A stretch of 64,000 nt of DNA from Mesorhizobium sp. CAU 1732 (lineage in GTDB: Bacteria > Pseudomonadota > Alphaproteobacteria > Rhizobiales > Rhizobiaceae): contig NZ_JBDQQR010000004.1 of assembly GCF_039888675.1 (NCBI RefSeq), positions 248,001 through 312,000 on the forward strand, read 5' to 3'. The position numbers and the translations under genes were made by a program. Below, one piece after another: positions 1 to 14,789 of the stretch (its first letter is position 1; each line of letters starts with the position of its first letter). Below the pieces are notes generated by a model, which saw only the letters and a list, made by a program, of their open reading frames with translations, made no database searches and had not been told where the DNA came from.

Positions 1-344
1 CGCCAAAGCCGTCTTGTTGTCCATCCGAACGCAGATGTGATTGCCGCGATCGTTGGGCAACTCCGGCGAGCTCCGCCCCGAAACCCGACAATCGTTCCTT
101 GTTGTGAACGACCGCCAGAATAGCCAGCTTCGCCATATCCCGGGGGAGCAACCTGCGATCCGAAATGCGTGGTGAAGAGATTTGTAAGAACTTGCGGACG
201 GAAGTCCGAGGGGAGAGCCTATCGCCCAGTTCGCGCCCTGCCCGGCGGTGGCGATAAGGCGTGGCTTGCCGCAATCGTGGCCAGATGTTCGTAGCCGGTC
301 CGCGTCGGATCGTAGCGAGCGACGGGATCTGGAAGTTCGACTGC
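1..344. repeat. Two blocks repeated in inverted orientation near 14.7 kb
   Basis: Bases 1-38 match the reverse complement of 14705-14742 with 3 mismatches, and bases 302-344 match the reverse complement of 14649-14691 with 2 mismatches in 43. Here the two blocks are 263 bases apart; at the other locus they are only 13 apart and directly abut a copy of the dadA 3' end. I recognise no gene in the first 670 bases. The blocks look like ancestral flanking DNA of dadA that was duplicated, inverted and shortened at the second site. Confidence 0.75.
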
Positions 345-673
345 AGCACTCAGCGGTTCGTCGTTGAACATAAACGTCAAAGATCATAGGTACTTCATCT
401 GTTCGGAATGAGCACATGCCTTTGGCCCAGACAACAAGCAATGCCCAATCGAGGACCCGCGCGCGTTTCATGAACCACGCGGGCAGCCTCATCGCATGCA
501 TTTAGCCCTGGCGCGGCCGCAAGGCCGTCGACCGGGGGCCGGAAATCTAACCAAGCCTAAAATTCGGTTTTGATTACGGGTCCGCTCCGCCGGCCCCGGT
601 GGAGATGCATGATGAGATTTTGGTTTTCCAGTATTATTCAGAGCATTACGCCCTTGTTTTCCGGGGGGCGAGC

Positions 674-1927
674 ATGAGAGTTCTCGTTCTTGGCAGCGGC
701 GTTATCGGGGTGACCTCGGCGTGGTATCTGGCCCAGGCCGGACACGAGGTTACTGTCGTAGACCGGCAGTCCGGCCCCGCTCTCGAAACAAGCTACGCCA
801 ATGCAGGGGAGGTGTCGCCCGGCTACGCGTCTCCCTGGGCCGGCCCCGGCGTGCCCCTAAAGGCACTGAAGTGGCTTTTGATGAAACACGGCCCGCTGGC
901 GATCCGCCCCACGTTGGATCCGGCGACATTGTCATGGCTCCTGAAGCTGCTGCGAAACTGCACGTCCTCTCGTTACGCGATCAACAAGGCGCGGATGGTG
1001 CCGATCGCGGAATACAGCCGCGATTGCCTGCGCGACCTGCGCGCATCCACCGGTATCGCCTATGACGAACGCGCGCAGGGCACGCTGCAACTGTTCCGTA
1101 CGCATCACCAGTTGAACGGGATCGGCAACGACGTCGAGGTTCTGAAGCAGTTCGGGGTTGCCTTCGAAGTTCTTGACCGGGCGGGCTGCACCATTGCGGA
1201 ACCGGCGCTGGGGCGGGTGCCGGAAAAGTTCGTGGGCGGCTTGCGACTTCCTGGCGACGAGACCGGGGATTGCCGCCTCTTCACCGAACGGCTGGCGGAA
1301 ATGGCAAGCCCGGCGGTCGACTTCCGCTACGGCGTGACCATCAAAGAGCTGATACATGAGGGCGGCCGGGTTCTGGGCGTCCGCACCGACCGGGGAGAAA
1401 TCCGGTCCGACGCCGTAGTTGTGGCGCTCGGCAGCTATTCCCCCCAGCTTCTGAACCCACTCGGCATCCGCATCCCGGTCTATCCGGTGAAGGGGTACTC
1501 ATTGACGGTGCCGATCGCGGACGAGTCATGTGCCCCGGTCTCCACTGTCATGGATGAAACCTACAAGATCGCGATCACGCGCCTCGGCGACCGGATCCGC
1601 GCCGGCGGCACGGCGGAGATCGCAGGCTATGACAGGTCGCTACGCCTGTCGCGCCGGGCGCCACTTGAGCATTCCGTAAAGGATTTGTTCGATGGCGGCG
1701 GCAGATGGAAAGACGTGACCTTCTGGTCGGGCCTGCGGCCAATGACACCTGACGGTCCGCCGATCATAGGGAACACGCCCGTTGCCGGCCTCTACCTCAA
1801 CACCGGACACGGCACGCTTGGCTGGACGATGGCCTGCGGTTCGGGACGTGTCCTGGCCGACATCATTTCGGGAGCGCGCCCTGACATCGACGTCAACCAC
1901 CTCGGTGTCGGCCGATATTTGGCGTGA
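674..1927 (+). CDS. dadA: D-amino acid dehydrogenase (small subunit type, FAD-dependent)
   Basis: The 417-residue product is the usual length for DadA. An FAD-binding dinucleotide fold opens the protein (GSGVIG at residues 7-12, followed by an acidic residue ending the second strand), and the C-terminal FAD loop NTGHGTLGW sits near residue 376. The family oxidatively deaminates D-amino acids such as D-alanine to 2-oxo acids and passes electrons to the respiratory chain at the inner membrane. The ATG at 674 is chosen because it begins directly at the Rossmann fold and follows a G-rich ribosome site at 663-669; an in-frame upstream ATG at 599 would add 25 residues unlike the family. No alanine racemase is next to it. 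Its last 43 bases recur in inverted form at 14606-14648. Substrate specificity within the DadA/glycine oxidase group is not certain. Confidence 0.9.
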
Positions 1928-2004
1928 GCGGGAGTGTCGTGATAGGCCGTCCTCTGTCGCGGGTCGTGTGGGTCGGGCGTGCGGTGTGAGGCTGCCCGAC
2001 CTTT

Positions 2005-2472
2005 GTGTGGTGCGTCATTGTGGCGGTTGAGGAACAACTGGCTGATGCCGGTCATCATCTGACCGTCTGCATTGGCGCGAATACCGCTGAAGACGTGACA
2101 GTCGAGGACCGTTCCGTTTCGATGCGGCGGCCATATGCTTCGTCCGGTGAATCGCGACCAGGTGCCCCTCCCTCGGGACCCCAGGCGCCGATCGCGAGGG
2201 TATTTCGTAGCTGCTCGAGCCTTACGCATCTGCCGCCGGGGACGGTTTGGGAACGGGAGGCGATAGACGAGCTGATCAGGCTCGTTGCGGCGGTCCCAGC
2301 CGACCAGACAGCACTGGCATGGGATACGCTTGGCGGCATCGCCATCGATGACGACATCAAGCTTGGCCGCGTTGACAGTGCCCGCCTGACCGCGAATTTC
2401 CAGGAGACGGTGCGCCGCCTCGCGGGGGCAGGTTTTGACCGAGATCGACACTTGCTAACCGTGGAGATTTGA
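2005..2472 (+). CDS. Hypothetical protein, possibly a decayed gene
   Basis: This frame gives about 155 residues. The second half (from about 2240) has strongly coding-like third positions and reads as an acidic helical segment, while the first half looks like non-coding sequence, so the true start is unclear and the gene may be an N-terminally truncated remnant. I recognise no family. It lies 77 bases after dadA with no clear ribosome site, and it converges on the importer genes to its right. An opposite-strand frame covers much of the same DNA, and I cannot fully exclude that instead. Confidence 0.3.
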   Translation: MWCVIVAVEEQLADAGHHLTVCIGANTAEDVTVEDRSVSMRRPYASSGESRPGAPPSGPQAPIARVFRSCSSLTHLPPGTVWEREAIDELIRLVAAVPADQTALAWDTLGGIAIDDDIKLGRVDSARLTANFQETVRRLAGAGFDRDRHLLTVEI

Positions 2473-2658
2473 AGCCCGTCCCGCAACGGGCCTATACGCA
2501 ATTAATAACGGTCTCGGCTCGAACGGGACCGTTTATGTCAATCTTGCCCTTTAGCGTTCGAATCCCATCGCCATCGACGCGGGCCAGTCCCAGACTACTT
2601 GCAGCAATTTACGGCGCGTCACCACACGCTCGAAATGCTGCACCAGAGCAAATAACAC

Positions 2659-2685
2659 CCCCTCTCCGATGTAAACGGAGAGGGG
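2659..2685 (-). terminator. Hairpin downstream of the ABC importer operon
   Basis: A perfect 10-bp stem (2659-2668 with 2676-2685) and a 7-base loop lie 13 bases beyond the stop codon of the leftward substrate-binding protein gene. On the minus strand it is followed by a short T-rich stretch without a long T run, so termination is plausible but not certain. Confidence 0.55.
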
Positions 2686-2698
2686 CGCATCGATCCAT

Positions 2699-3805
2699 TT
2701 ACGCACGGAATGCTCGCGCACGTGCTATGATTGGGGCGACATCGAAGTCATTCATGGCGGGGACGAATTGCCGGGTAAAGTAGGCCGAGGCCGGCAACAC
2801 TTCCTTGATCGCTTTGCCCTCGAACATCACGGTGGCAGCAAATTCTATCGCCTCGTCGGAGACGTCGCCGATCTTTTCGGTTCGGTCGAACACGCGTTGC
2901 TGCAGACGCATAAATTGCTTGCGCGCGGCAAGGCGCCGGCCGTCGAGATCGATCAGGTGCTGTTCGCTCAAGCCGTTCGGACGCGACGCTGGGAACGTCT
3001 GGAAATGCAGTTTCGTCAATTCCGCTGGCTCGGCTGCTGCCATCACCACGATCGACTTCGCCATCGCGCGCGCAATCTTTTCAATCAACTCTGGTTCCTT
3101 CTCCACCGTGGAGGCCAACGTGCTGTTCGCTTGGCTGTAACCAATGCGCCGCAGCGGCTCGGGCAGGAAATAATTCAGCTGCGCTCCATTGGTCTCGAAC
3201 AGAGCGTATACCGCATCCCAAAGAAACAGAGCCTGCACGCGCCCGCGCTGCAGAGCATCCAGCGCCGGCAGCGATGAACCGACGACGAGAACCGGAACGT
3301 CTTTCGGATCCCACCCTTGTGCCCGCACGATCATCTCAATTGTCGGAATCAAGGCCGGCGAGTTCGTCCCGATCGTCTGGCCCTTCATATCCGCGAATGA
3401 TTTGATGGGACCATCCTTCAACACCGCGACCGACTGGTAATTGTCGGGAATGGGGCACATGAAGCCCACCACCGGTATGCCATTGGAACGGCCGCCGAAG
3501 ATGCCGCCTGCGCCCGTAACCATGGCGGAGGCTTGTCCTGAAACCATCAAGTTGGTCGCGAGTTGGGCTCCTGCAACCGGCATGATTTCGACGTCGAGGC
3601 CCTCTTCAGCGTAGAAGCCGAACGAGATCGGGATGGACGCGTAGACTGCGTCTGCGGAGGAATCGAGAGTTGCAATACCGTAGGATATGCCGATCTTGCG
3701 GCGCGTTTGCGCAATGGCCGGCATCGCCAGCGTTGTCGCCGTGGCCGCTGCGGCGGCAAGCAGTTTTCGCCGGGTTAAGGCGAACGGAATGTATTTAATT
3801 GTCAT
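2699..3805 (-). CDS. ABC transporter periplasmic substrate-binding protein (NrtA/SsuA/ThiY-like)
   Basis: This 368-residue exported protein has a twin-arginine type leader: R12-R13 followed by an Ala-rich hydrophobic core, with likely cleavage after PAIA near residue 32. The mature part has the fold-type pattern of the SsuA/NrtA/THI5-like family that captures sulfonates, nitrate, taurine, pyrimidine precursors or riboflavin-like compounds. It is the last gene of a leftward three-gene importer operon (ATPase, permease, binding protein). A LysR gene separates the operon from the divergent Rut-like catabolic operon, so it may import that pathway's substrate; this is inference from position. The ligand cannot be read from the sequence. 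Confidence 0.85.
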   Translation of the reverse strand: MTIKYIPFALTRRKLLAAAAATATTLAMPAIAQTRRKIGISYGIATLDSSADAVYASIPISFGFYAEEGLDVEIMPVAGAQLATNLMVSGQASAMVTGAGGIFGGRSNGIPVVGFMCPIPDNYQSVAVLKDGPIKSFADMKGQTIGTNSPALIPTIEMIVRAQGWDPKDVPVLVVGSSLPALDALQRGRVQALFLWDAVYALFETNGAQLNYFLPEPLRRIGYSQANSTLASTVEKEPELIEKIARAMAKSIVVMAAAEPAELTKLHFQTFPASRPNGLSEQHLIDLDGRRLAARKQFMRLQQRVFDRTEKIGDVSDEAIEFAATVMFEGKAIKEVLPASAYFTRQFVPAMNDFDVAPIIARARAFRA

Positions 3806-3837
3806 TTTGGGTTCCCCTGTTGTTAAGTGGTGGCTTT

Positions 3838-4614
3838 TCAGGCTGCCCTGCCGGAAATCTCGCTTTGGCTCGCCCAGAACAAAATCTTGTGGCGGGCGTA
3901 CTCGACCCCGAAATGAAATATGGTTCCGACAATCGCGAGAATGATTGCGGTCGCAAAGACGCCCGCGGTGTCCAGCAGCGCACTCTGGTTGACGATCAGG
4001 TAGCCCATGCCGGTGTTTGAGCCCAAGAACTCACCGACGATCACACCGAGCATCGAAAACAAAAGGCCAATGTTGGCGCCCGCAAGCAGGAACGGCATCG
4101 AACTCGGCAACTTCACTTTCCAGAACAGCTGAACGCGCGTCGCACGCAACGTGCGCATGAGCGCGACCTGCTCATTGTCGGCGATTTTCAATCCGTGAAG
4201 CATATTCAGGAAGATGGGGAAGAAGGCGGACAGTGCCCCAAGGGCGATCTTCGACTCAATGCCATATCCGCACCAGACGATGATGACGGGCGCGAGCGCG
4301 ATGCGCGGCATTGCCTGGAAGCCCACCAGAATCGGGTAGATAGTGCGCTCGAGAAAGCGCACTTCGCTGATAACGGCGGCGCTGGCTACGCCTAGCACGA
4401 ATGCGATCAGGAATCCGGCGACCGTCGCATAGATGGTCATGGCGAGATGATGTGGGTAGAGATCTATCCCGTTTATCAGCGCGAACAGCACCTGGGTGGG
4501 CGCAGGCAGCAGGATGCCGGGCTCGAAAATGACGACCGCAAGCTCCCAAAGTAGAAACGAAGCGATAAATGCGCCGATCGCGTAGAGGAACGAGACAAAG
4601 TTTTCCATGGTCAT
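3838..4614 (-). CDS. ABC transporter permease (SsuC/NrtB-like)
   Basis: This 258-residue inner-membrane protein has about six hydrophobic segments. The cytoplasmic EAA-type loop that docks the ATPase lies in the second half (around LPSSMPFLLAGANIG). Its start overlaps the stop of the upstream ATPase gene by four bases (4611-4614), indicating translational coupling. Together with the ATPase and the binding protein it forms one importer of the nitrate/sulfonate/taurine/pyrimidine-precursor type. Length and layout are normal for the family. Confidence 0.88.
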   Translation of the reverse strand: MTMENFVSFLYAIGAFIASFLLWELAVVIFEPGILLPAPTQVLFALINGIDLYPHHLAMTIYATVAGFLIAFVLGVASAAVISEVRFLERTIYPILVGFQAMPRIALAPVIIVWCGYGIESKIALGALSAFFPIFLNMLHGLKIADNEQVALMRTLRATRVQLFWKVKLPSSMPFLLAGANIGLLFSMLGVIVGEFLGSNTGMGYLIVNQSALLDTAGVFATAIILAIVGTIFHFGVEYARHKILFWASQSEISGRAA

Positions 4615-5486
4615 TCCTCACCTCCAGCGTGACGCTCCGGAAACAACGAGCGGATATGATCAGCGATTTCTCCGAAGCGTGGGTGTCCCATCACTGACAA
4701 CGACCGGGGCCGTGGAATATCTACGTCCAGCACTTCCAGGATGCGCCCGGGACGCGGCGTCATGACCACGATACGGTCGCTCAATAGAATTGCCTCCGGG
4801 ATGTTGTGGGTGACGAAGATCATCGTTCGCCCGGTCGCTTTCCATATGCGCTGGAGCTCCAGGTTGAGGTCTTCGCGGGTCATGGCATCAAGTGCCGCAA
4901 ACGGCTCATCCATCAGCAGCACTGGCGAGTCGAATGCCAGCGCACGTGCAATTGCGACGCGCTGCTGCATGCCGCCCGACAGTTCCGCGGGGTAAGCATT
5001 CTCGAACCCCTGCAGTCCGATCATGGTCAGGAGCTGACGCGCACGCTCCGCGTATTCCTCCCTTGGCTCAAGACCAAGCACCTCGGCAGGCAGGAGGACG
5101 TTGTCGATGATACGACGCCAAGGCAGCAGGACTGGACGCTGAAATACGTAGCCAATCGACGCTTGGTCGGCGACCGGCGAGCCGTGGATCGCAATCGACC
5201 CCGATGTAGGCGTGAGCAGCCCGGCAATGAGGTTAAGCAGAGTAGTCTTGCCGCATCCACTAGGCCCGAGGATGCTCACGAACTCGCCGTCTCGGATCGA
5301 CAGCGTACTTGGTGCCAGCGCCACAACCGAGGCGCGGTTCCGAGTTTGATACGTCTTGCTGACTGCGTCGATTACAACACTCTCGCCCGACCTTGTTTCA
5401 ACGTCTTTCAAAGCGACCCCACTAATGCACTTGGTTCTGGCGCCCACTGTCGTGCCTTGGAAGTGTGGCGACCTACCCATGTTCAA
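4611..5486 (-). CDS. ABC transporter ATP-binding protein (SsuB/NrtD-like)
   Basis: This 291-residue nucleotide-binding subunit shows Walker A GPSGCGKT at residues 74-81, the signature LSGGMQQR at 169-176 and Walker B LLMDEP at 190-195. The first ~38 residues precede the ABC fold and are unusual, so a later start is possible. It is the first gene of the leftward importer operon and overlaps the permease gene by four bases. It powers the same uptake system as the neighbouring permease and binding protein. The 900-base region upstream holds the promoter but no clear gene. Confidence 0.9.
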   Translation of the reverse strand: MNMGRSPHFQGTTVGARTKCISGVALKDVETRSGESVVIDAVSKTYQTRNRASVVALAPSTLSIRDGEFVSILGPSGCGKTTLLNLIAGLLTPTSGSIAIHGSPVADQASIGYVFQRPVLLPWRRIIDNVLLPAEVLGLEPREEYAERARQLLTMIGLQGFENAYPAELSGGMQQRVAIARALAFDSPVLLMDEPFAALDAMTREDLNLELQRIWKATGRTMIFVTHNIPEAILLSDRIVVMTPRPGRILEVLDVDIPRPRSLSVMGHPRFGEIADHIRSLFPERHAGGEE

Positions 5487-6387
5487 ACGAACCTCGAATA
5501 GATATTGAAGGGAAACGCACGATCATCGGCGGGAATGCGCCGGACGCGCGCTCCATCAAGGATCTTGTCCATCGTCGACCCCAGGTCCGGGCATGCGTGC
5601 GGCACGCTTCCAGTCATCTGAAGCCATAGTTAGCGAGCGTTGTTTCACTAGAACGCAAGCATTCGACGAATTCGCTTTGCTGGCATGCCAGGCGTGCAGC
5701 GTTGCCATTCCATGCGGGGTGGCACGTTGCATAAGTGCAATTGCCGGTCGCCCGGTCGAACCTTGGTTCATCATGCTAGTCATCTGCAAGCTCCGCCATG
5801 GGCCGCTCATTGCTCGACAGTTTCAGATATACCTTCCACGAAACGAGATAAGCGGGTCCAATGCTTTTATCCAAAAAACGCATCCGCATTTCTTATGTGT
5901 CTAGGCGTATCATCCCGCTCGCGGATGGTGGCCATCTCGGGCGCGCTCGCACCTCGCAGTCGGCAACTAGGCCGAGGTTGGGATCGTGGTCGATGGTGAT
6001 CGACAGTTGCGGGGCGCTGGTGGTTCTGGCGTGTATGACAACCACAGCCACACAGTCGTCGGCGCCGATGATGGCCGTCGCGCCGGCTATGGCTCCTTCC
6101 GTCAGGGTGTTCAAGCCGTCAACGCCGCTCTGGCGGCCAGCCACTAGACACGCAAGTGAATTCCGTGCGGGGTCTGGCATGAAAGCCACCTAGCTCGGGG
6201 TAGTCAGCCGACTCCGAAGGACAGCGGCACGGCTGCACCCGATCATGAGCCGCTTGGACGTCATGCACCTGCCCCCGTAGGCGTCTGACCAGGTTGGAGT
6301 GTCTGGACGTCCACGCGGCGCGCGGGACGCATGCTGCCAAGCGGCAACATGGACCGTGATTGGGGAGAGGCGAAGACTTTGGGCTTC
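5487..6387. other. Long gap without a recognisable gene; weak minus-strand frame at 5893-6189
   Basis: About 900 bases separate the importer operon from the LysR gene. The only frame with some coding character is on the minus strand at 5893-6189 (98 residues, Ala/Val-rich middle section), which I cannot assign to a family; it may be the remnant of a deleted catabolic gene. Base composition is more mixed than in the flanking genes. Confidence 0.4.
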
Positions 6388-7314
6388 TCAGTCGACTGAT
6401 GTCTGGTGCTGGCTGTAATCCCAACCGTCTTGCAACGTGCGAACAGCGCCGTGCAGATGCGCCATGAACTGATCGACGACAACGGAGCGCCTTTTGTTCT
6501 TAGGAATCATCGCGACGTATTCGACCATCAGGGCTGGCATCAATGGGCGGAACTGAAGCCGGTCGCCATAAGCAACCCCGTTAAAAAGATCGATGACGGC
6601 AACGCCTACACCAGCCTCCGCCCATTGGCAGGCGGAAACCGCCGAGGTGGTATAGAAGTTTTTCACATGCGCCGGCTTGTCGATTCGTAGTGCCGCCTGC
6701 CACTGAGCGTAGATCGGCGTGTTTCGGGTGGGCAGAATGATGCGCTGGTCGCTCAGGTCATCACGGGTAATGATCTGCTTCTTCGCCAGTGGATGCGTGC
6801 TCGGCATAGCGGCGATCGCCTCCACCCGCGCCAAGAGTTTGATCATGGCGTCTGGATAGGCCATCGGCATCAACGACAGCGCCAAGTCGAAATTGCCCAG
6901 TCCGGACCAGTCGCGCAGGTCCCCCGGAATGGACATTTCCATCGAGATCTCGACGTCGGGAAATTCAGCGACGAACGACTTCATTGCTGCAGGCAAGAGG
7001 CCGAAGGCTGCGGCCGGCGTGCAGGCGATCTGCAATTGGCGATGCTGGTCATTCCGGAGACCCTTCGACATCTCGTCAATCCGGGTCATTCCAGCCAATA
7101 TCATATCGACTTCGTTGTAGAGGGCGATTGCATCGGATGTCGGCACGATGCGCCGCCCTTCCCGAACGAACAGCCCCATTTTCAGGCTTTCAGCCAGATC
7201 ATGCAACAGACGACTGACCGCGGGCTGGCTCAAGCCAAGGTGCTCCGCGGCCATTGATACCGATCCGGTCTGCATCCAAGCGCTGAAAGCCCTGAGGCGG
7301 CGAAGATCGATCAT
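6388..7314 (-). CDS. LysR-family transcriptional regulator
   Basis: The 308-residue protein has an N-terminal winged helix-turn-helix (residues 1-60; helix region LSQPAVSRLLHDL) and a periplasmic-binding-like effector domain from about residue 90. The ATG at 7314 is chosen because it starts exactly at the conserved LysR N-terminus; the open frame continues 58 codons upstream without family-like sequence. It is divergent from the RidA/RutA-like operon, 291 bases away, the classical layout for a LysR activator of a catabolic operon. It may also control the leftward importer. The effector is probably the pathway substrate or an intermediate, which is inference. Confidence 0.9.
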   Translation of the reverse strand: MIDLRRLRAFSAWMQTGSVSMAAEHLGLSQPAVSRLLHDLAESLKMGLFVREGRRIVPTSDAIALYNEVDMILAGMTRIDEMSKGLRNDQHRQLQIACTPAAAFGLLPAAMKSFVAEFPDVEISMEMSIPGDLRDWSGLGNFDLALSLMPMAYPDAMIKLLARVEAIAAMPSTHPLAKKQIITRDDLSDQRIILPTRNTPIYAQWQAALRIDKPAHVKNFYTTSAVSACQWAEAGVGVAVIDLFNGVAYGDRLQFRPLMPALMVEYVAMIPKNKRRSVVVDQFMAHLHGAVRTLQDGWDYSQHQTSVD

Positions 7315-7605
7315 TGAAAAGGGGTAGCACGGAATAAGTACATTACAAACACGGATGTTTCCTTTGAATGAATGCATTGGACACTCCAGCATGCTGCGCG
7401 GCATCGTTCGACCGATCACAGGGAGTGAGATTGGTGTGGGTGGCGAGGTGAACGGGCATGTCAGCCTGTTCCCTAGAGGCGAGTGCACCGGCGGGACAAG
7501 CGCCGCCTACGATCAGGGAACCACGCGCCCGCCGCCACTACACGACCGTACTCTCCGGGCCTTCGGAACAGTCTCGCTGGCCTGTCATTCGAGGAAGGGA
7601 AGACA
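7315..7605. promoter_or_regulatory. Divergent LysR/catabolic operon control region
   Basis: This 291-base spacer separates the LysR start from the first catabolic gene, and both promoters must lie here. An AT-rich part next to the LysR start includes the palindrome AATGCATT (7371-7378), a candidate piece of a LysR site. The part nearer the operon is GC-rich. No firm -35/-10 pair is visible. Confidence 0.4.
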
Positions 7606-8052
7606 ATGAGCAAAGCTGTATTTATATCGGAAAATCGGCCACCCAGGACTCAGGTGCCGCAAAGCCAAATCGCAAAGGCGGGTGACTTCCTCTTTCTGAG
7701 CGGCGTGTCCGCACGCAGCGATGACGGCAAGGTGGTCGGGCATGGCGACATCAAAGCGCAGACCCGTCAGATCTTCACCAATATCCAGAGCGTCCTGGCC
7801 GTGGTGGGCTGCGACCTGACCGACATTATCAGGTTGACCACCTACCTAGCGACGCCTGCGAGTGATCTGGAAGCTGCGCACAAATACATCGACACGCGGA
7901 TGGAATTCTTTGGCGATCATCGCCCGGCAAGCACCGGGGTCAATGTCGCTGGCCTGATGCTGCCCGAGATGCTGGTCGAGGTAGATGTCATAGCTTACGC
8001 GCCGCACGCCGTGATCGGACCAAATGCCAAGATCATCGGTGGAGCAAAATAA
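7606..8052 (+). CDS. RidA/YjgF-family protein, RutC-like
   Basis: This 148-residue member of the Rid family is of usual length plus a short tail. The ATG at 7606 follows the ribosome site GAGGAAGGGA (7591-7600); the longer upstream frame has no family similarity. Rid proteins hydrolyse reactive enamine/imine intermediates, and RutC acts as an aminoacrylate-type deaminase in pyrimidine ring breakdown. In the C-terminal strand region the archetypal VARLP segment, with its catalytic Arg, reads VAGLMLP here, so it belongs to an Arg-lacking Rid subgroup. Its stop shares one base with the start of the RutA-like gene, showing tight coupling to the monooxygenase, as expected for step-wise opening of an N-containing compound. 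Confidence 0.85.
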   Translation: MSKAVFISENRPPRTQVPQSQIAKAGDFLFLSGVSARSDDGKVVGHGDIKAQTRQIFTNIQSVLAVVGCDLTDIIRLTTYLATPASDLEAAHKYIDTRMEFFGDHRPASTGVNVAGLMLPEMLVEVDVIAYAPHAVIGPNAKIIGGAK

Positions 8053-9146
8053 TGCGGATGATCGACGCAGGAATATTCATCCCTGTTGGCAACCGCGGAT
8101 GGGTTGTTTCTAGCAACGCCCCCGAGGAGGAGGATGCTTCGTACCCGCGCGTTCTGACAGTGGTCAAGAAAGCTGAGGCGCTAGGATTCGATTTCGCGCT
8201 TAGCCCGGCGATCTGGCGCGGTTACCAAGGATCAAGTGAATACTGGATGCGTTCGCTTGAATCGCTGACGCTCTCGGCCGCTTTGCTGCAAGCGACGAGT
8301 AGGATCATGGTGTACGGCACCGTCCATATGACGGTCTATCCGCCAGCCACCATTGCCAAGATGATTGGTACGCTGGACCAGATCGGCCCTGGCCGCGTGG
8401 GGCTGAACCTGGTGACAGGAGCAAACTATCTCGATCTGTCACATCTCGGGCTCTGGCGAGATGGGTTGGACCATGATGAACGGTACGATCTGGCTGACGA
8501 GTGGATCACCGTTGCCAAGCGCCTCTGGAGCGAGGGTGTCGTATCGCATAAAGGCCGGCACTTTGCATTGGATGAAGCAGTCATGGGACCGAAGCCGTCG
8601 CGGCTGCCACCTCTGGCCAATGCAGGAGCGTCCGGGCGGGGGATGAAGTTCGCGGTCGACAACTGTGATATCGCCTTCATCGCCACCGGCGAGGGCCAAG
8701 AGTACATCGCTGCGGCCAAGAGCGCGCGCACCACTGCAGGGGCGGCGGGCAAGTCCGATCTGAAGATCTATGGTCTGTTTACGTTGATTCCCGGCGATAC
8801 GGATGATGATGCCCGAGCCAGGCTGGCACACTTCGATGCTGGTGTTGACCAGGAGGCACAAGCCCATATTGCGCAGGGCTATGCGATGAATCCGAACGCC
8901 AAAGATGTCAGCACGATATCGAAGGGGCGGGGCGGTCATGGCACCGGCAGTTCTGTCGCTCGGTGGACTATGATCGGCTCATACGAGTCGCTTGCCGGTC
9001 GCATCGCAAAGGTCGTCGACGAAGGCGATCTCGACGGGATCATCCTCGTCGTACCCGACTATGTGACGGATCTCGAAGCGATTGCAGGGAGGACTCTGTC
9101 GCGCCTTGTCGAGTACGGGATCACCTGTCGCGTCGGTCAAGCGTAA
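8052..9146 (+). CDS. Flavin-dependent (bacterial-luciferase-like) monooxygenase, RutA-like
   Basis: The 364-residue TIM-barrel flavoprotein has the RutA-type N-terminus (GIFIPVGNRGWVVSS), the conserved GPGRVGLNLVTGAN segment, and a LDHDERY block typical of the long-chain group. RutA cleaves the uracil ring between N3 and C4 using FMNH2 and O2. Related enzymes oxidise dimethyl sulfone, chelators and sulfonates, so the exact substrate is open. Reduced flavin would come from the flavin-reductase fusion encoded at the end of the same operon. The position after a RidA/RutC gene and the N-terminal signature favour a pyrimidine-like or other N-heterocyclic amide substrate. Confidence 0.85.
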   Translation: MRMIDAGIFIPVGNRGWVVSSNAPEEEDASYPRVLTVVKKAEALGFDFALSPAIWRGYQGSSEYWMRSLESLTLSAALLQATSRIMVYGTVHMTVYPPATIAKMIGTLDQIGPGRVGLNLVTGANYLDLSHLGLWRDGLDHDERYDLADEWITVAKRLWSEGVVSHKGRHFALDEAVMGPKPSRLPPLANAGASGRGMKFAVDNCDIAFIATGEGQEYIAAAKSARTTAGAAGKSDLKIYGLFTLIPGDTDDDARARLAHFDAGVDQEAQAHIAQGYAMNPNAKDVSTISKGRGGHGTGSSVARWTMIGSYESLAGRIAKVVDEGDLDGIILVVPDYVTDLEAIAGRTLSRLVEYGITCRVGQA

Positions 9147-9444
9147 TGCGGTTTGCCATGGGCAGTTGGCAAAGGCACTCAGAAGAGGATCTCGCTGTCG
9201 AGCCGCTGTCTGGCGGCCAGGGTCGCCAGGGCGTGTCGATAGCCGCGTCGGATGCGGCTCAGGCGCAGAGTGTATTTCGTTTCAGCGCAAGACCGGGCCC
9301 GGCATCCGGCTGACCACAGCGGCATCATCGCGCCAAGCCGCCGGACCGCAACTTTATCTCGGAATCCGACACTGGGAACATCATGCGTGCGCCGGTTCCG
9401 GGGCGGGTGATGTTATCCCATCAGTCCTGAAACAGGAGCATGCA
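9147..9444. other. Unusually long spacer inside the catabolic operon
   Basis: Nearly 300 bases separate the monooxygenase gene from the next translated element, although other junctions in this operon overlap or are short. I find no intact gene. One frame near 9360-9420 ends with MRAPVPGR, reminiscent of a biotinyl/lipoyl carrier segment, which could be a trace of a deleted gene, but the match is too short to assign. Confidence 0.4.
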
Positions 9445-9495
9445 ATGTACGTAGTGAAGGAAACGGCCGCAGCCATTGCGGAGGCTGCCCGATGA
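9445..9495 (+). CDS. 16-residue leader peptide coupled to the hydrolase gene
   Basis: An ATG at 9445 follows a clean ribosome site AGGAG (9434-9438) with 6 bases spacing. It opens a 16-codon frame (MYVVKETAAAIAEAAR) whose TGA overlaps the hydrolase ATG in an ATGA junction at 9492-9495. The hydrolase itself has no good ribosome site of its own, so its translation probably depends on this mini-frame. It may be the preserved start of a deleted gene or a real coupling leader. Confidence 0.45.
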   Translation: MYVVKETAAAIAEAAR

Positions 9496-10301
9496 GCGTC
9501 GAATACGTCACGTCGTCACCGCGGATTGCGCTTATCGGCGCCGGAAGCGGCCCGCTCATCATTTTCATGCACGGTATCGGCGGCGGGAAGGAAAACTGGA
9601 TTGAACAGATTCCAGCCTTCGCCGGCGAGTTTCACGCAGTTGCCTGGGATGCCCGAGGATACGGCCACTCCGACGACTACGAGGGACCGTGCCGCTTCGA
9701 GGATTTCGCCGCAGACGTTGTGCGAATCATCGACTTCTATGGCGCGAGGAAGGCACATCTGATTGGCCTCTCCATGGGCGGCCGCATCGCTCAGCATTGC
9801 TATTTCAGGGCGCCCGACCGCGTCGCTTCCCTGACGCTATGCGATACGCAGATGACTTTCGAGAACCGCTCCGATGCGGACCGCGAAGCGTTCCTTGCGT
9901 CGCGCCGCGCTCCACTTCTCGCGGGGAAGACGACGCGCGACATCGCCCCGGCGGTGATCGGTTCCCTCGTTGCTCCAAACGCATCGAAGCGGGCGCTCGA
10001 CCAGGCCATGGAAACCATGGGGCAGTTGCGCACGGAGAATTACCTGAAGACGATGGAAGCGGTTCTGCGCGAGCCCATCGCGGGTGACTTCAGCAAGATC
10101 GATGTTCCAGTCCACGTTGTCGTGGGCGAACTCGACAAATTGACTCCACCACCCATCAGCGAGGACATCGCGCGGCGCATCCCTGGGGCGAGGTTCTCCA
10201 TCATCCCTGGAGCGGGCCACCTCAGCAACATCGAAGAGCCCCACGCCTTCAATCTTGCCGCGCTGGAATTCGTCCGCGACGTCGAACGAAGCCAGGCGTG
10301 A
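9492..10301 (+). CDS. Alpha/beta hydrolase (RutD/PcaD-like)
   Basis: The 269-residue protein has a complete catalytic set: oxyanion loop HGIGG at 27-31, nucleophile elbow GLSMGG with Ser94, Asp215 in VVVGELDKL, and His243 in GAGHLSN. The family covers enol-lactone hydrolases, haloperoxidase-like enzymes and RutD, which speeds hydrolysis of aminoacrylate or carbamate in pyrimidine breakdown. It starts by ATGA overlap with a leader peptide and is followed directly by the RraA-like gene. It probably hydrolyses the ring-opened product of the monooxygenase; which bond is cut cannot be told. Confidence 0.87.
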   Translation: MSVEYVTSSPRIALIGAGSGPLIIFMHGIGGGKENWIEQIPAFAGEFHAVAWDARGYGHSDDYEGPCRFEDFAADVVRIIDFYGARKAHLIGLSMGGRIAQHCYFRAPDRVASLTLCDTQMTFENRSDADREAFLASRRAPLLAGKTTRDIAPAVIGSLVAPNASKRALDQAMETMGQLRTENYLKTMEAVLREPIAGDFSKIDVPVHVVVGELDKLTPPPISEDIARRIPGARFSIIPGAGHLSNIEEPHAFNLAALEFVRDVERSQA

Positions 10302-10937
10302 GTGAATGATATGTCCTCCACAGACTGCACCAAACAGGATGCCGCGCGGGAAATTGTTGCTGCCTTCGCTGCATGTCCGGTTGCCACCATCAGCGACAAT
10401 CTCGACCGTTCCGTTGGGGCGCGTGGGCTGACGATGATGTCGCAGTCGCGACGCATGATCGGACCGGCCTTTACCGTCAAAACGGCGCCGGGAGACAATG
10501 CTTGGATCCATCGAGCGCTCGACGTCATGTCGCCCGGGGATGTCCTGATCGTAGACGGTGGGGGATACGAAGATCGTGCGCTGATCGGCGAGATCATGAT
10601 GCGTATCTCGCAGGCGCGGGGCGCGGCCGGCTGGGTTATCGATGGAGCCATCCGTGATCTCGACGTCATTGCATCAGGAGATTTCCCGGTCTTTGCACGC
10701 TCCTCGACCCATCTCGGGCCTTACAAGAACGGTCCCGGTGCGCTGCAGGTCTCAGTCTCGATCGGCGGAATGGTCGTCCATCCGGGTGATATCGTCGTGG
10801 GTGACATCGACGGCGTTGTGGCCTTCTGCCCCGAAATCGCGGCTGACCTGCTCGTAGCGGTCGAGAAGCAGATGGCGAAAGAGGAAGCCATCCTTCGGCA
10901 GATCGCAGATGGCACCTATCGCAATCAGTACGCCTGA
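10302..10937 (+). CDS. RraA-family lyase (aldolase/decarboxylase-like)
   Basis: The 211-residue protein matches the RraA / 4-hydroxy-4-methyl-2-oxoglutarate aldolase family. It has GEIM beginning at residue 96 and VIDGAIRD ending at 119, with the family's Arg118-Asp119 pair, and HPGDIVVGDIDGVV near the C-terminus. It starts with GTG at 10302, right after the hydrolase stop; an ATG at 10311 is an alternative. Enzymes of this family split 4-hydroxy-2-oxo acids or decarboxylate oxaloacetate; others regulate RNase E. Its place in a catabolic operon favours a metabolic lyase acting on the carbon skeleton after ring opening. No RraA is part of the classical rut operon. Confidence 0.85.
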   Translation: MNDMSSTDCTKQDAAREIVAAFAACPVATISDNLDRSVGARGLTMMSQSRRMIGPAFTVKTAPGDNAWIHRALDVMSPGDVLIVDGGGYEDRALIGEIMMRISQARGAAGWVIDGAIRDLDVIASGDFPVFARSSTHLGPYKNGPGALQVSVSIGGMVVHPGDIVVGDIDGVVAFCPEIAADLLVAVEKQMAKEEAILRQIADGTYRNQYA

Positions 10938-11035
10938 CATAGCCCCCCGTCGCGCAGATAGCGGTAGAGAAACGTGACGAAGCGGAAGTCGAGGCGGTCA
11001 TCGGCTATCTGACCCAAACCAAGAGAGACTGAGTC

Positions 11036-12100
11036 ATGACACAACATACGGACATCAAGGCGATCGACACCGAGCTGTTCCGGGCCCTGATGCGGCGCAT
11101 CGCCTCCAGCGTCGCGGTGATCACGACGTCTTACGAAGGCCACCTACACGGCATGACCGCGACCGCGATCGCGAGCGTCTCTGCCGATCCCGCCCGGTTG
11201 TTGATCGTCGTCAACCGTTCGACCCGCAGCCATCCGCTGATCACGTCCAGCCGCACCTTCAGCGTCAACATGCTGGCCGAAACGCAGCGCGATCTCGGCA
11301 CGCGGTTCTCATCTTCCAGCATCGAAGACCAGTTCGCCGGCGTCGATTACGAAATCGGCGTCTCCGGCAGCCCGATCTTGAAGGGAGCCGCCGCGCATCT
11401 GGAATGCTGTCTCGTCAGCGAGACCGATATGGGGAGCCACACCATCTTCGTTGGCGAGATCATCGGTGGTGCGCTTTCGCCCACGACCAACCCGCTTCTC
11501 TACCACGACGGTGCCTACAAGCGCCTGACGCCTCGGGTCAGCCCATACGATATCGCCCCATTTTTCCTTGAGCGCTGGTCGCCGCGCGCCTTCACAGACG
11601 AGACCATTTCGCCTTCAGATCTAATGCCCCTTTTCGAAGCCGCGCGCTGGGCGCCGTCGTCGATGAACGGCCAGCCTTGGCGCTTTGTTTACGTGCTCCG
11701 GGATAGCGCAGGCTGGAACGAGGTGCTGGACGGCCTCTCTAACACCAACCGTTCCTGGGCCTTCCGCGCTGCGGCACTCGTCGCCTTTCTGTCACAAGAC
11801 TGGATGGATTTCGGCGGCGGACCGGTTCCGTCGCCAACGCACAGCTTCGATGCCGGTGCGGCCTGGATGTCCTTCGCCCTGCAGGCGTTTCTTTCCGGCT
11901 GGCACACGCACGGCATGGCCGGCTTCGACCAGGCGAAGCTTCGCCAGACGCTGCAAATCCGCGAGGGTTTCGCACTCAACGCCATCATCGCCATTGGCAA
12001 GATTGGCGATGCCGGAATGCTGACTGACAAACTGCGCGCACGCGAACTGCCGGTGGATCGCGCGCCGCTGGAGCAGTTGGTGTTCCAGGGCAATATGTAA
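11036..12100 (+). CDS. Flavin reductase-nitroreductase fusion (RutF-RutE-like)
   Basis: The 354-residue protein joins two families. Residues ~10-166 form a flavin:NAD(P)H reductase domain (GMTATAIASVSADPARLL, then SVNMLA, then SHTIFVGEI). Residues ~170-354 form a nitroreductase-fold domain (RWSPRAF, AARWAPSSMNGQPWRF, GAAWMSFALQA). In Escherichia coli these are separate proteins: RutF supplies reduced FMN to RutA, and RutE reduces malonic semialdehyde. The fusion suggests that reduced-flavin supply and a downstream reduction, or a second flavin step, are coupled. The gene follows the RraA gene by 98 bases and closes the operon. No frameshift or internal restart separates the two domains. Confidence 0.88.
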   Translation: MTQHTDIKAIDTELFRALMRRIASSVAVITTSYEGHLHGMTATAIASVSADPARLLIVVNRSTRSHPLITSSRTFSVNMLAETQRDLGTRFSSSSIEDQFAGVDYEIGVSGSPILKGAAAHLECCLVSETDMGSHTIFVGEIIGGALSPTTNPLLYHDGAYKRLTPRVSPYDIAPFFLERWSPRAFTDETISPSDLMPLFEAARWAPSSMNGQPWRFVYVLRDSAGWNEVLDGLSNTNRSWAFRAAALVAFLSQDWMDFGGGPVPSPTHSFDAGAAWMSFALQAFLSGWHTHGMAGFDQAKLRQTLQIREGFALNAIIAIGKIGDAGMLTDKLRARELPVDRAPLEQLVFQGNM

Positions 12101-12466
12101 GGCCAATCGCTTCAGCCTGCCTAACAAAATACGCCGGTCGCACCTAGAACATTGCGACCGAGGAGACGCGCAGGTAACATTCCTCGCGTTCAGTCCTCTA
12201 GTAATGCGTCTTAACGTCGTAGCCTTAAATTTGAGGTTGATGCGGCACAGGCGGCACAGACACTCGCTTGTGCTGCTGTGGCCTAACTCAGCTCCCGGAC
12301 AATGGCAGCTTCGAGGAAGCCGGTTCGTCCGCCAAGCCGGCCGGAATAGGCGCGCATCGCTCCCGCTCGTAGGGGCAGCTCAAACGCCCGGTTTCAGGGA
12401 TAGGCAAAGTTTGCCCGAACCTCCACGATGGGAGCGCATATCAGGCTATGTTGGTTACTTAGGCGG
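12101..12466. other. Spacer without recognised gene
   Basis: These 366 bases between the end of the catabolic operon and the decayed block hold no frame I can support. The stretch marks the border between intact operon DNA and the mosaic of gene fragments to the right. Confidence 0.5.
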
Positions 12467-13075
12467 TCAATCTCGGTAGGTCCAATCGGTAACGGCTGCG
12501 ACCTGTTTGAAGACACCATCGACGCCATTGGCTGTAGGGTCGGCTCGTTGAAGCCACTCCTCAGCCCACGCGATCCAATCCTCAACGCTGCGTCCATCGG
12601 TCTCCGCCGAGGAAACAGTGTCCATTGATCGCAATGCCGACAGGAAATCGCGTACGGCGGCGAGTTCGTGCCAATCCTGTGACAGCTCCCTGAATTTTCG
12701 CCAGCGGTTAGCGTCTCGCTTGCGTCGTTGCTGCTCTTCATACCGGCGTCTCTCGGCGAGCTGGCGCTCGCGCTCTGCCACCTCTCGATCCTTGCGCTGT
12801 TGAACGAGCAATGGTCCGGCAGCGACGAAAGTGGCCAGAATATCAGGCAGCATGCCCTCCATTGGCTGTTTTTCGGATTCAAGCCATTGGCGCGTAAGGC
12901 CTGCCGGCCATTGCCAGGTCTTGATCTCAATAGCCAGCAATCCGGTCGGCACCAGTTCCTTCTTCCAGCCGTTGTCGCCAGTTGAGCGCCATCGCTTCTC
13001 GTCTTTGGTCAGAGGCCGCCGTTCCTGCTTTTGCTTCTCGCGAACCTGAAACTCCACCTTTTCGCCCAAGACTTC
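12467..13075 (-). pseudogene. N-terminally truncated hypothetical protein with charged coiled-coil
   Basis: About 200 residues remain. The beginning (VEFQVREKQKQERRPLTKDE) resembles the middle of a conserved rhizobial hypothetical protein that usually has a longer N-terminal part. A strongly charged Arg/Glu-rich helix (likely coiled coil) follows in the middle, and a Trp-containing C-terminus ends in TDWTYRD. The open frame extends a further ~48 codons upstream, but that part lies antisense to the serine recombinase remnant and is not family-like. Similar proteins often sit beside recombinases and insertion sequences; their function is unknown. Confidence 0.55.
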
Positions 13076-13096
13076 GGCGACCAGACGACCGCGCTC

Positions 13097-13312
13097 CCCC
13101 TGCGCAACCTGTCCGCCTTGGCGCTCAATCGCCTTGAAGCCATCCGCGAGATTATCGATCGCATCGTCATCACACCCGGCCCGACACGCCGGGACCTCAC
13201 CGTCACCCTGCAAGGCGAGCTTGGCACAATCCTCAACTGGATCGAGCGAACCGGAAAGCCAGGCTACAAGCCGGCGATCGATACCCGCTCATCGCAGTTG
13301 TCGGTCTCGGTC
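13097..13312 (+). pseudogene. C-terminal fragment of a serine site-specific recombinase
   Basis: About 72 codons match the extreme C-terminal region of large serine recombinases of the resolvase/invertase type (RLEAIREIIDRIVITPG, then a TVTLQGELGTILNW segment). The catalytic serine domain and the recombinase core are absent. The fragment begins at the break where the leftward hypothetical gene was cut and continues in frame into mannonate dehydratase sequence, so a deletion fused the two. Confidence 0.6.
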
Positions 13313-13321
13313 AAAACTCGG

Positions 13322-14264
13322 GCAGGTCTGCGCCTCATCAATTTCACCGTGATGCCTTTGCTCGACTGGGTGCGCACCGGGCTGGACACGACGCTGGAGA
13401 GCGGGGCTGAGGCGCTGGGCTTCGACATCATCGATTTTGCGGTGTTCGATGTCTTTCTGCTGCAACGCCCCGGCGCGGCGGACGAGCTGGCCTCGAAACT
13501 CCTGGCGGCCGCCGAGCATCGCTACACCACCACGCCGCGCGCTCTGGGACGAGCTTCTGCGCACGCTGATCCGCGGCTTGCCCGGCGGCCCCGGGCACTA
13601 CGAGAGCGGCGAATTCCACGCGCTGCTGGCCGCCTATCAGCAACTCGGAACCGAGGCCTACCGGCGAAACCTGATTGATTTCTTGGGCGAGGTCACCCGG
13701 ACCTGCGAGGAAGAAGGCGCGGTATTCGCCATCCATCCCGACGATCCGCCAATCCCGCTCTGCGGCCTACCGCGGATCGCCAGCACGCTCGACGACTTCG
13801 GCAAGATCTTCGATGCCGTTCCTTCGCCGGCCGCTGGGATGATCTTCTGCTCGGGCTCGCTCGGCAGCAGGCGCGACAACGTCCTTGCCGATTTCGTCGC
13901 CGCGTTCGGGCCGCGCATCTTTTATGCACTTCCACGACGTATTCGTTTTCGCGACGATCTTGGCAGCTTCACCGAAGCCGAGCATCTGGGCGGCGAAGGG
14001 GCGTTTGACCTTCGCGACGTCATCGCTCTGTTGACGAGCGAGGAGGCGCGCCGCCGGGAGGCCGGCGTTTCGAACTGGGAGATTCCCTACCGCGCCGATC
14101 ATGCGTGTCGGATCCTTTACGACCAGGGTAGGGCGGATTTCGTGCCGGGATACTCGCCGGTCGGCCTTGTCAAGGCGACGGCGGAGCTGCGCGGCATGAT
14201 CCACGGGCTGGACGCAGGGCGTGGGGGCGCTACATCAAATTTCAGGTCTTGTGGTAGTGGCTAA
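13322..14264 (+). pseudogene. uxuA: Truncated, frameshifted mannonate dehydratase
   Basis: The sequence covers roughly the last three quarters of UxuA, which dehydrates D-mannonate to 2-keto-3-deoxygluconate in hexuronate breakdown. Recognisable blocks are NFTVMPLLDWVRT near 13335, AIHPDDPPIPLCGLPRI, FCSGSLGSRRDN, and YRADHACRILYDQG with PGYSPVGLVKATAELRG near the end. The N-terminal third is missing; the frame instead continues upstream into a serine recombinase tail. A frame change near 13545 (after TTTPRAL) moves the remainder to another frame. No other hexuronate genes are nearby, so this is a stranded remnant. The metal-binding residues in the last blocks are still largely present. Confidence 0.8.
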
Positions 14265-14566
14265 ATGGAAGCGCAGAGACGCCTGGGATACGGGCCAAGG
14301 CCCAGAGAACCGGAAGCTGAAGCAGCGGTGCTCGGCCTCGTTGAAGGACAGGAGTTCGTGGTGACGGAGGGCGAAGATGATGAAGTCCGTATCCTGCTGC
14401 AAAAGGCGCACAGCCCGAGGCCGCGAAGCGCGAAAAGGAGGCGCTGACGCATATCTCCCCTCTGGCTCAGCGTAAGCTATGTCGAGCCACGTTTCGCGCC
14501 CCTAGAGGTTGGTGGTTCCGATGATCCGGGACCTTCTGCCGCGTGACAAGCGATAGACACCACGTC
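14265..14566. other. Spacer between the uxuA remnant and the hairpin
   Basis: These ~300 bases contain short frames on both strands: a plus-strand frame of about 60 codons from 14265 rich in Glu/Arg, and an antisense frame. I cannot assign either. The region belongs to the decayed block left of fdhD. Confidence 0.4.
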
Positions 14567-14602: not shown

Positions 14603-14605
14603 CTG

Positions 14606-14742
14606 CCGCTCACGCCAGATATTGGCTGACACCGAGGTGGTTGACGTCGCAGTCGAAATTCCAGATCCTGTCGCTCGCTACGATCCGACGCAGAGCGGCG
14701 GTGGACATCCGCGTTCGGGTGGACAACAAGACGGCTATGGCG
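14606..14742 (-). pseudogene. dadA: Deletion remnant of a dadA region
   Basis: Bases 14606-14648 are the reverse complement of 1889-1931 with 40 of 43 identical, and encode the DadA C-terminus VNHLG..YLA plus stop. Directly adjoining blocks 14649-14691 and 14705-14742 match 302-344 and 1-38. Relative to the first locus, about 1.5 kb (almost all of dadA) and about 250 further bases are missing. It lies immediately upstream of fdhD and could form part of its leader region. Confidence 0.75.
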
Positions 14743-14789
14743 CACTGTTGCGGGCAATGCGCGAGCAATCCCATCATCGACGGTGACCC

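Follow-up and report, generated by a model that had tools for sequence, protein, structure and literature searches.

What does a bacterium open with a RutA-like monooxygenase when the enzyme that usually acts second, the RutB hydrolase, is missing? The question is raised by an operon at positions 7606-12100 of a 64,000-nucleotide stretch of Mesorhizobium sp. CAU 1732 DNA (NZ_JBDQQR010000004.1, positions 248,001 to 312,000; hereafter the window), which a preliminary description made from the sequence had read as a rut-like ring-cleavage operon of changed composition. We find that the operon is real and that it is not a rut operon. Its monooxygenase lies within the RutA superfamily, where it belongs to a separate, well-supported clade. 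In the loci examined, members of this clade are accompanied by a Rid-family protein with serine in place of the catalytic arginine and by no RutB-like hydrolase, while the reverse is seen in loci of RutA and of a third clade. This RutB-free branch is undescribed as far as our literature search shows: among the matches listed (titles and abstract beginnings, with subscription papers mostly outside), none described such a pathway or a function for the branch.

The five enzyme genes were recovered on the forward strand in the order originally proposed (Rid, monooxygenase, alpha/beta hydrolase, RraA, flavin reductase-nitroreductase fusion), all well above chance by Pfam. The Rid and monooxygenase genes share one base, the hydrolase and RraA genes abut, and all five are open with guanine-cytosine (GC) content by codon position of the coding type, a pattern that the interval at 9147-9491 does not possess. 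Nine isochorismatase queries, run at E 1e-3, found no RutB-like gene in positions 1-14300 of the window, and no permease gene is found among the five, both as first described. The gene set of the preliminary description, whilst correct for the enzymes, omitted a divergent LysR-type regulator gene and, beyond it, an ATP-binding cassette (ABC) importer (2699-5486) of a kind that recurs in related loci.

The position of the monooxygenase was established from sequence, trees and fold. The protein is 33% identical to RutA and scores 235 bits against the NCBIfam RutA model (TIGR03612; cut-off 498.3), below the equivalog level; neither the NtaA family model (130 bits, cut-off 280) nor SfnG (121 bits, cut-off 383) is passed. 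When the structure was predicted (mean predicted local distance difference test score, pLDDT, 85.2), the best five PDB entries were all RutA. In a 58-row tree the monooxygenase belongs to a 34-row clade (support 100/99), distinct from a RutA clade of 9 rows (100/100) and from a third clade of 4 rows comprising Kozakia, Hyphomonas, Novosphingobium and Acetobacteraceae metagenome-assembled genome (MAG) enzymes; the branching order of the three clades was not resolved. A 64-row tree, from which L021 and L058 were omitted, retained the window clade (35 rows, 100/99) and grouped it with the third clade (95/90), RutA lying next to the pair. The comparison with RutA, SfnG and NtaA that had been suggested at the outset thus places the enzyme within the RutA superfamily, with the SfnG and NtaA rows outside in both trees. 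The trees held no DszA row; the distance to this type was judged from BdsA (5tlc), which is considerably more distant than RutA in both sequence (71 versus 200 bits) and fold search (E 3.7e-19 versus 1.4e-27). A sulfone or NtaA-type enzyme is therefore ruled out by model scores, the 5tlc comparison, both trees and fold.

RutA is a hallmark flavin-N5 oxygenating enzyme and cuts the N3-C4 bond of uracil (available sections of PMC7662398). Its oxygen pocket is lined by L65, T105, N134, V136 and F224, and W139 and E292 border the substrate side (PMC7662398 and PMC10005588, in the parts accessible). All five pocket residues (RutA numbering) are kept in 10/10 clade rows compared. Conversely, W139 and E292 are each kept in 0/10, in an alignment that is gappy around E292. 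The conserved pocket is what is observed here; formation of a flavin-N5-peroxide by the window enzyme is predicted from it.

The Rid protein departs from the rut system in a different way. Residue alignment places a serine at the position of Arg104 of E. coli RutC, and the score against the RutC model lies far under its cut-off (Table 1). RutC needs its catalytic arginine (available sections of PMC8113886), and the window protein lacks this residue, which marks deaminating Rids of the RidA and RutC type. The original RutC-like label is hence doubtful.

We compared loci across the superfamily, counting a gene as present when it lay within the stretch analysed, 6 to 30 kb in length (only 6 kb for L014). 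The first set comprised 16 clade loci (the window, L001-L006, L008-L012 and L043-L046), 4 RutA loci and 4 third-clade loci. A Ser-type Rid was present in 16/16 clade loci and a RutB match in 0/16; in the RutA and third-clade loci the counts were reversed, with a RutB match in 8/8 and a Ser-type Rid in 0/8. A check set of eight further plasmid loci yielded six that could be placed: one clade locus (L104), four RutA loci and one third-clade locus. L104 again possessed a Ser-type Rid and no RutB, while the other five had no Ser-type Rid (0/5) and matched E. coli RutB in 4/5 cases. The remaining two, L109 (outside the superfamily clade in the 64-row tree) and L110 (a long branch of unsure placement), were excluded from the count and showed neither a Rid nor a RutB-like match. 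With all nine isochorismatase queries (other self matches were discarded, but E. coli RutB was counted on its own genome), clade loci gave 0/17 matches at E 1e-3, whereas the others gave 13/13 at E 6e-11 or better, L108 with its annotated isochorismatase included. Across all 30 loci a Ser-type Rid thus accompanies 17/17 clade monooxygenases versus 0/13 others (Fisher p 8e-9), although the split corresponds to approximately one event on the tree, so that both the number of loci and the p value overstate the evidence. In the monooxygenase tree L104 is, moreover, almost a duplicate of L006, and L008-L010 are alike in gene order and positions.

RutB-like genes and Ser-type Rids are therefore mutually exclusive across these loci. 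The absence of RutB reported for the window holds; as it is shared, together with the Arg-less Rid, by 17/17 clade loci, it is no peculiarity of this operon. The Rid gene of L005 lies 6.7 kb from the monooxygenase gene, and six of the 16 clade loci (L002, L004, L005, L006, L045 and L046) carry an additional Arg-type RutC-like Rid. Beyond these loci, 29 of 30 Rid loci selected in the family gave an alignment row; serine was present in 14/29, and the six nearest the query adjoin a RutA-like gene. The idea that Ser-type Rids occur only with RutA-like enzymes is false, 8 of the 14 having no such gene in the short stretch examined. Niehaus et al. (2015; available sections of PMC4433059) called the Arg-less subfamilies Rid4-Rid7 mysterious and found serine in approximately 10% of RidA proteins.

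Exchange of the usual second enzyme for a different partner suggests that the substrate is probably not uracil, and we agree with the preliminary description that a different substrate is likely. Neither outcome named there as refuting holds: the monooxygenase does not group with sulfone enzymes, nor is the operon a standard rut operon with rutB elsewhere. Clues to the substrate come from importers and neighbouring genes. The window binding protein scores 42.7 bits against 3qsl (an exported protein without a name), with 3ix1 (ThiY, a thiamine-pyrimidine binding protein) next and SsuA at 16 bits. Its relatives lie beside the monooxygenase gene in L008-L010, L012 and L043, and NMT1-type binding proteins were found in 10/16 clade loci, the window included. 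The L008 protein matches 3qsl first and then THI5, the nearest among named matches; that of L006 reaches 144 bits against ThiY 3ix1. TenA-like, TriA-like and NMT1-type (ThiY-like) genes occur in three loci of one subclade (L004, L006 and L046) and also in L104; no such set was present in the stretches examined of L005 and L045, which belong to the same TenA-linked subclade. The presence of TenA-like, deaminase and ThiY-like genes in one subclade points to 2-substituted pyrimidines, such as the pyrimidine of thiamine. A monooxygenase relative is also encoded in Sphingobium fuliginis ATCC 27551, on plasmid pSF2; the strain breaks down the pyrimidinol IMP. A connection with diazinon is a lead only. 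ATCC 27551 has been tied to an organophosphate hydrolase gene, and the pyrimidinol IMP is a diazinon product (available sections of PMC8591295); the accessible part of PMC9445152 names no ring-opening gene.

From these observations we tentatively favour, with slightly less than even confidence, an importer-fed, LysR-controlled operon whose enzymes open a small N-heterocycle by chemistry of the RutA type, the ring being a 2-substituted pyrimidinone or a comparable cyclic amide, with RraA trimming the product. The NMT1-type ABC importer would bring in a pyrimidine-like ring. The flavin reductase half of the fusion would supply reduced flavin mononucleotide (FMNH2), with which the RutA-like enzyme may form a flavin-N5-peroxide in its oxygen pocket and cut the N3-C4 amide bond in a pyrimidin-4-one substituted at C2, or in a cyclic amide like it. 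If C2 bears carbon instead of oxygen, chemistry predicts an amidine and not a ureido acid, and RutB would then find no substrate. The C-N steps may fall instead to the Ser-type Rid and the alpha/beta hydrolase; an alpha/beta hydrolase acting on an acetamido-enamine acid is found in the vitamin B6 pathway. The leftover oxo acid would lose CO2 or a C1-C2 piece to RraA, either as an oxaloacetate-type product of a ring with a 6-carboxyl group or by retro-aldol cleavage following from a 5-hydroxymethyl group, and the nitroreductase half would reduce a semialdehyde, as predicted for RutE. A more specific proposal for the whole RutB-free branch, that the Arg-less Rid regularly partners the monooxygenase and itself performs the first C-N step (amidine hydrolysis, for example), we consider possible though rather unlikely. 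The solid part is the branch and its exchange of partners across the loci compared; for the substrate and the RraA step we rely on inference.

Below both cut-offs, the hydrolase is nearer PcaD (151 bits, cut-off 255.85) than RutD (84 bits, cut-off 238.5) and lies nearest to esterases and enol-lactonases, so the RutD label given originally was not sustained. RraA passes its subfamily model NF004850 (Table 1), does not reach the LigK/PcmE equivalog (107 of 304.5 bits), and is nearest among solved structures to 3noj, a 4-carboxy-4-hydroxy-2-oxoadipate aldolase/oxaloacetate decarboxylase. R123/D124 of 3noj, presumably the catalytic Arg-Asp pair, are kept as R118/D119, and with the model score this places the protein in the RraA family. 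Given that relative, a beta-keto acid would also serve, and the hydroxy-oxo acid thought to be implied by RraA is not necessary. RraA is ruled out as a clade-wide feature: one survey found it in 0/18 loci, and in a second, of 24 loci, only the window carried it. The reductase part of the fusion scores 98 bits against RutF (cut-off 254.75), below the equivalog level, and the nitroreductase part 49 bits over part of the malonic semialdehyde reductase model PRK05365 (cut-off 152). At E 1e-75 the fusion was found in the window's own genome only among 247 genomes of the family. A 70% identical fusion is encoded on a Terrarubrum plasmid (L049, 14957-16051) about 7 kb from another luciferase-type enzyme that groups with the NtaA rows, and the fusion may thus be a portable reductase module. 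For the interval at 9147-9491, no Pfam match was obtained with the two pieces tried, and the tblastx matches listed against related loci, those in the own genome aside, were no better than E 0.015; a cupin was suggested by eye and found no support.

Several observations weigh against the favoured scheme, beginning with the roughly single event behind the Rid/RutB split and the eight Ser-type Rids without a RutA-like neighbour. The best solved match of the window binding protein is 3qsl and not ThiY, and proteins of the NMT1-type family bind many ligands. The TenA-like proteins tested, at 129 and 124 bits, fall just short of the TenA cut-off of 130, the deaminases of the TenA-linked loci reach no curated cut-off, and TenA-like and deaminase-like genes are absent from positions 1-14300 of the window. 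L008-L010 and L012 carry neither hydrolase nor RraA in the stretches examined, so these two steps are not general. Around the substrate side, the gaps near E292 are joined by low model confidence (pLDDT below 50 at 54-58, 125-127 and 130-134), close to where W139 would lie.

The same chemistry might instead act on a non-pyrimidine ring, such as a pyridazinone, a hydantoin-like ring, an N-alkylated heterocycle or another cyclic amide or lactam, the Ser-type Rid handling a ring imine. A Rieske oxygenase/VanB pair in two clade loci, joined in one by a formaldehyde dehydrogenase, fits removal of a methyl group from a different ring before opening, and RraA is peculiar to the window among the loci examined; against this, the sole subclade with a readable substrate context is a pyrimidine one (TenA-like and ThiY-like genes) and the window binding protein leans weakly the same way. 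We consider a non-pyrimidine ring unlikely. We regard as decidedly unlikely a Baeyer-Villiger or other non-amide oxygenation of a ketone, steroid or terpene, in which the PcaD-like hydrolase would cut the resulting ester. The kinship of the hydrolase with esterases and enol-lactonases agrees with this reading, and a luciferase-like enzyme performs a Baeyer-Villiger reaction on progesterone (available sections of PMC12239570), but the nearest relatives and fold are those of RutA with the oxygen-pocket residues kept, and a Rid accompanies the monooxygenase in 16/16 loci read.

That the operon is the decaying relic of a catabolic pathway, no longer functional in this strain, would account for the 345-base broken-frame interval, the recombinase-like pieces recognised by eye on both sides, and the lack of any monooxygenase relative at E 1e-40 in 7 congeneric genomes. 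Decay is nevertheless very unlikely when the five enzyme genes remain open with a coding pattern that the interval lacks, and when monooxygenases 83% and 77% identical and a fusion protein 94% identical exist in other protein data. The reading of a rearranged uracil/thymine pathway, with an unrelated amidohydrolase performing the RutB step, draws on the weak RutA, D, E and F analogues and on distant RutB-family genes elsewhere in the genome. It is highly improbable given a RutA score under half of the cut-off, loss of W139 and E292, a Rid without the catalytic arginine and a monooxygenase clade of its own (100/99). A standard rut operon whose rutB lies elsewhere is ruled out: at E 1e-40 the sole RutA match of the genome is the operon gene itself (234.7 bits), and the best RutB match reaches 82 bits (cut-off 378).

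Should the RutB-free branch operate as proposed for the Rid, Rids of unknown function would gain a reaction, pathways for the thiamine pyrimidine and 2-alkyl pyrimidinols would be described, and the window operon would be a further branch ending through RraA. The RutB-for-Rid swap offers a clue, open to experiment, to what the branch acts on and to what Rids that should not deaminate may do. It also suggests loci that may encode a bacterial route for the thiamine pyrimidine and perhaps for pyrimidinols derived from pesticides.

Table 1. Features of the operon and its divergent neighbours (window positions).
Feature	Positions	Strand	Basis
NMT1/THI5-type substrate-binding protein	2699-3805	-	PF09084; 3ix1 39 bits, weak; relatives beside monooxygenase
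ABC importer permease	3838-4614	-	PF00528; relatives beside monooxygenase in other loci
ABC importer ATPase	4611-5486	-	PF00005; 52-53% identical ATPases beside monooxygenase in L008-L010 and L012
LysR-type regulator, divergent from operon	6388-7488	-	PF00126 and PF03466
Rid-family protein, Ser at place of RutC Arg104 (PAST motif), monooxygenase partner	7606-8052	+	PF01042 76 bits; RutC model 46.5 bits (cut-off 169); residue alignment
RutA-like luciferase-type flavin monooxygenase, predicted ring-opening enzyme	8052-9146	+	PF00296 164 bits; RutA model; trees; fold search
345-base interval, no frame open throughout; possibly decayed small gene	9147-9491	.	Three-frame translations; Pfam; tblastx
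Alpha/beta hydrolase, GLSMG nucleophile elbow (Ser94)	9492-10301	+	PF00561 107 bits; NCBIfam; motif
RraA-type aldolase/decarboxylase	10302-10937	+	PF03737 154 bits; NF004850 (PRK06201) 254.8 bits (cut-off 231); alignment to 3noj
Flavin reductase fused to nitroreductase/RutE-like domain	11036-12100	+	PF01613 142 bits and PF00881 70 bits; fused homologues elsewhere

The window belongs to a 403-kb contig carrying a RepC gene (229 bits), which is thus probably a repABC-type replicon. Counting the own genome, monooxygenase relatives at E 1e-70 or better occur in 7/394 genomes of the family and 2/397 of the order, and at E 1e-90 in 1/385 of the class. Of 7998 candidates scored in protein data, 209 reached E 1e-40 or better, and a scan of viral contigs returned no relative. 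One genome of the same order encodes four tandem RutA paralogues (L047, 7708-12351), 53-56% identical to E. coli RutA.

Around the operon, pieces that by eye resemble N- and C-terminal parts of serine recombinases lie at 246600-247400 of the contig (L100) and at window positions 13031-13290. These pieces, about 14 kb apart, flank a block containing dadA, the importer and the operon, which may have entered or been rearranged within such a gene. Three short inverted copies (47-61 bases, 85-92% identical) of stretches at the window start (294-344 and 1888-1934, the dadA end) are located at 14603-14765. The D-amino acid dehydrogenase gene (599-1927; NF001933 675 bits, cut-off 383) faces the importer. 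Downstream of the operon lies an apparently frame-shifted UxuA-like (mannonate dehydratase) gene at 13031-14264, with PF03786 matching at 13437-14264 (135 bits) and, in another frame, at 13031-13675 (27 bits). Formate dehydrogenase and molybdenum-cofactor genes and a tungstate-type ABC importer were read by eye from the open reading frame list at 19538-43640. Some 60 kb away on the same replicon (L101, 4240-13070; contig 316240-325070) is a second NMT1-type importer, beside which an amidohydrolase and an Arg-type RidA were noted by eye. No Rfam element was matched in the window at gathering score.

Among known systems, RraA shares its family and Arg-Asp pair with 3noj, while passing only the unnamed PRK06201 subfamily model, and the binding protein belongs to the NMT1/THI5 family of ThiY (3ix1) and THI5 at a score slightly below that of 3qsl. 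L008-L010 and L043 (Pararhizobium, Flavimaribacter, a Rhizobiaceae MAG and G880) possess a 65-67% identical monooxygenase, a Ser-type Rid, a flavin reductase and an NMT1-type importer; they differ in carrying an NADPH-dependent FMN reductase-type gene and no nitroreductase fusion, with no hydrolase adjoining the monooxygenase and no RraA. In the TenA-linked clusters (a Paracoccaceae La 6 plasmid, Rhizobium daejeonense and Rhizobium ACO-34A) the related monooxygenases are 42-43% identical to that of the window and are likewise found with a Ser-type Rid, an alpha/beta hydrolase, a LysR regulator and an NMT1-type importer; these clusters add TenA-like and deaminase-like genes, a BMP-type ABC system and an Arg-type RutC-like Rid, and no RraA was seen in them. 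The E. coli rut operon (rutABCDEFG) differs from the window operon, which lies below the RutA, RutC, RutD and RutF equivalog cut-offs, lacks RutB and the Rid Arg104, and adds RraA, with a LysR regulator and an ABC importer alongside. Both nonetheless share the monooxygenase fold and oxygen pocket, and both bring a Rid, an alpha/beta hydrolase, a flavin reductase and a nitroreductase together in one operon.

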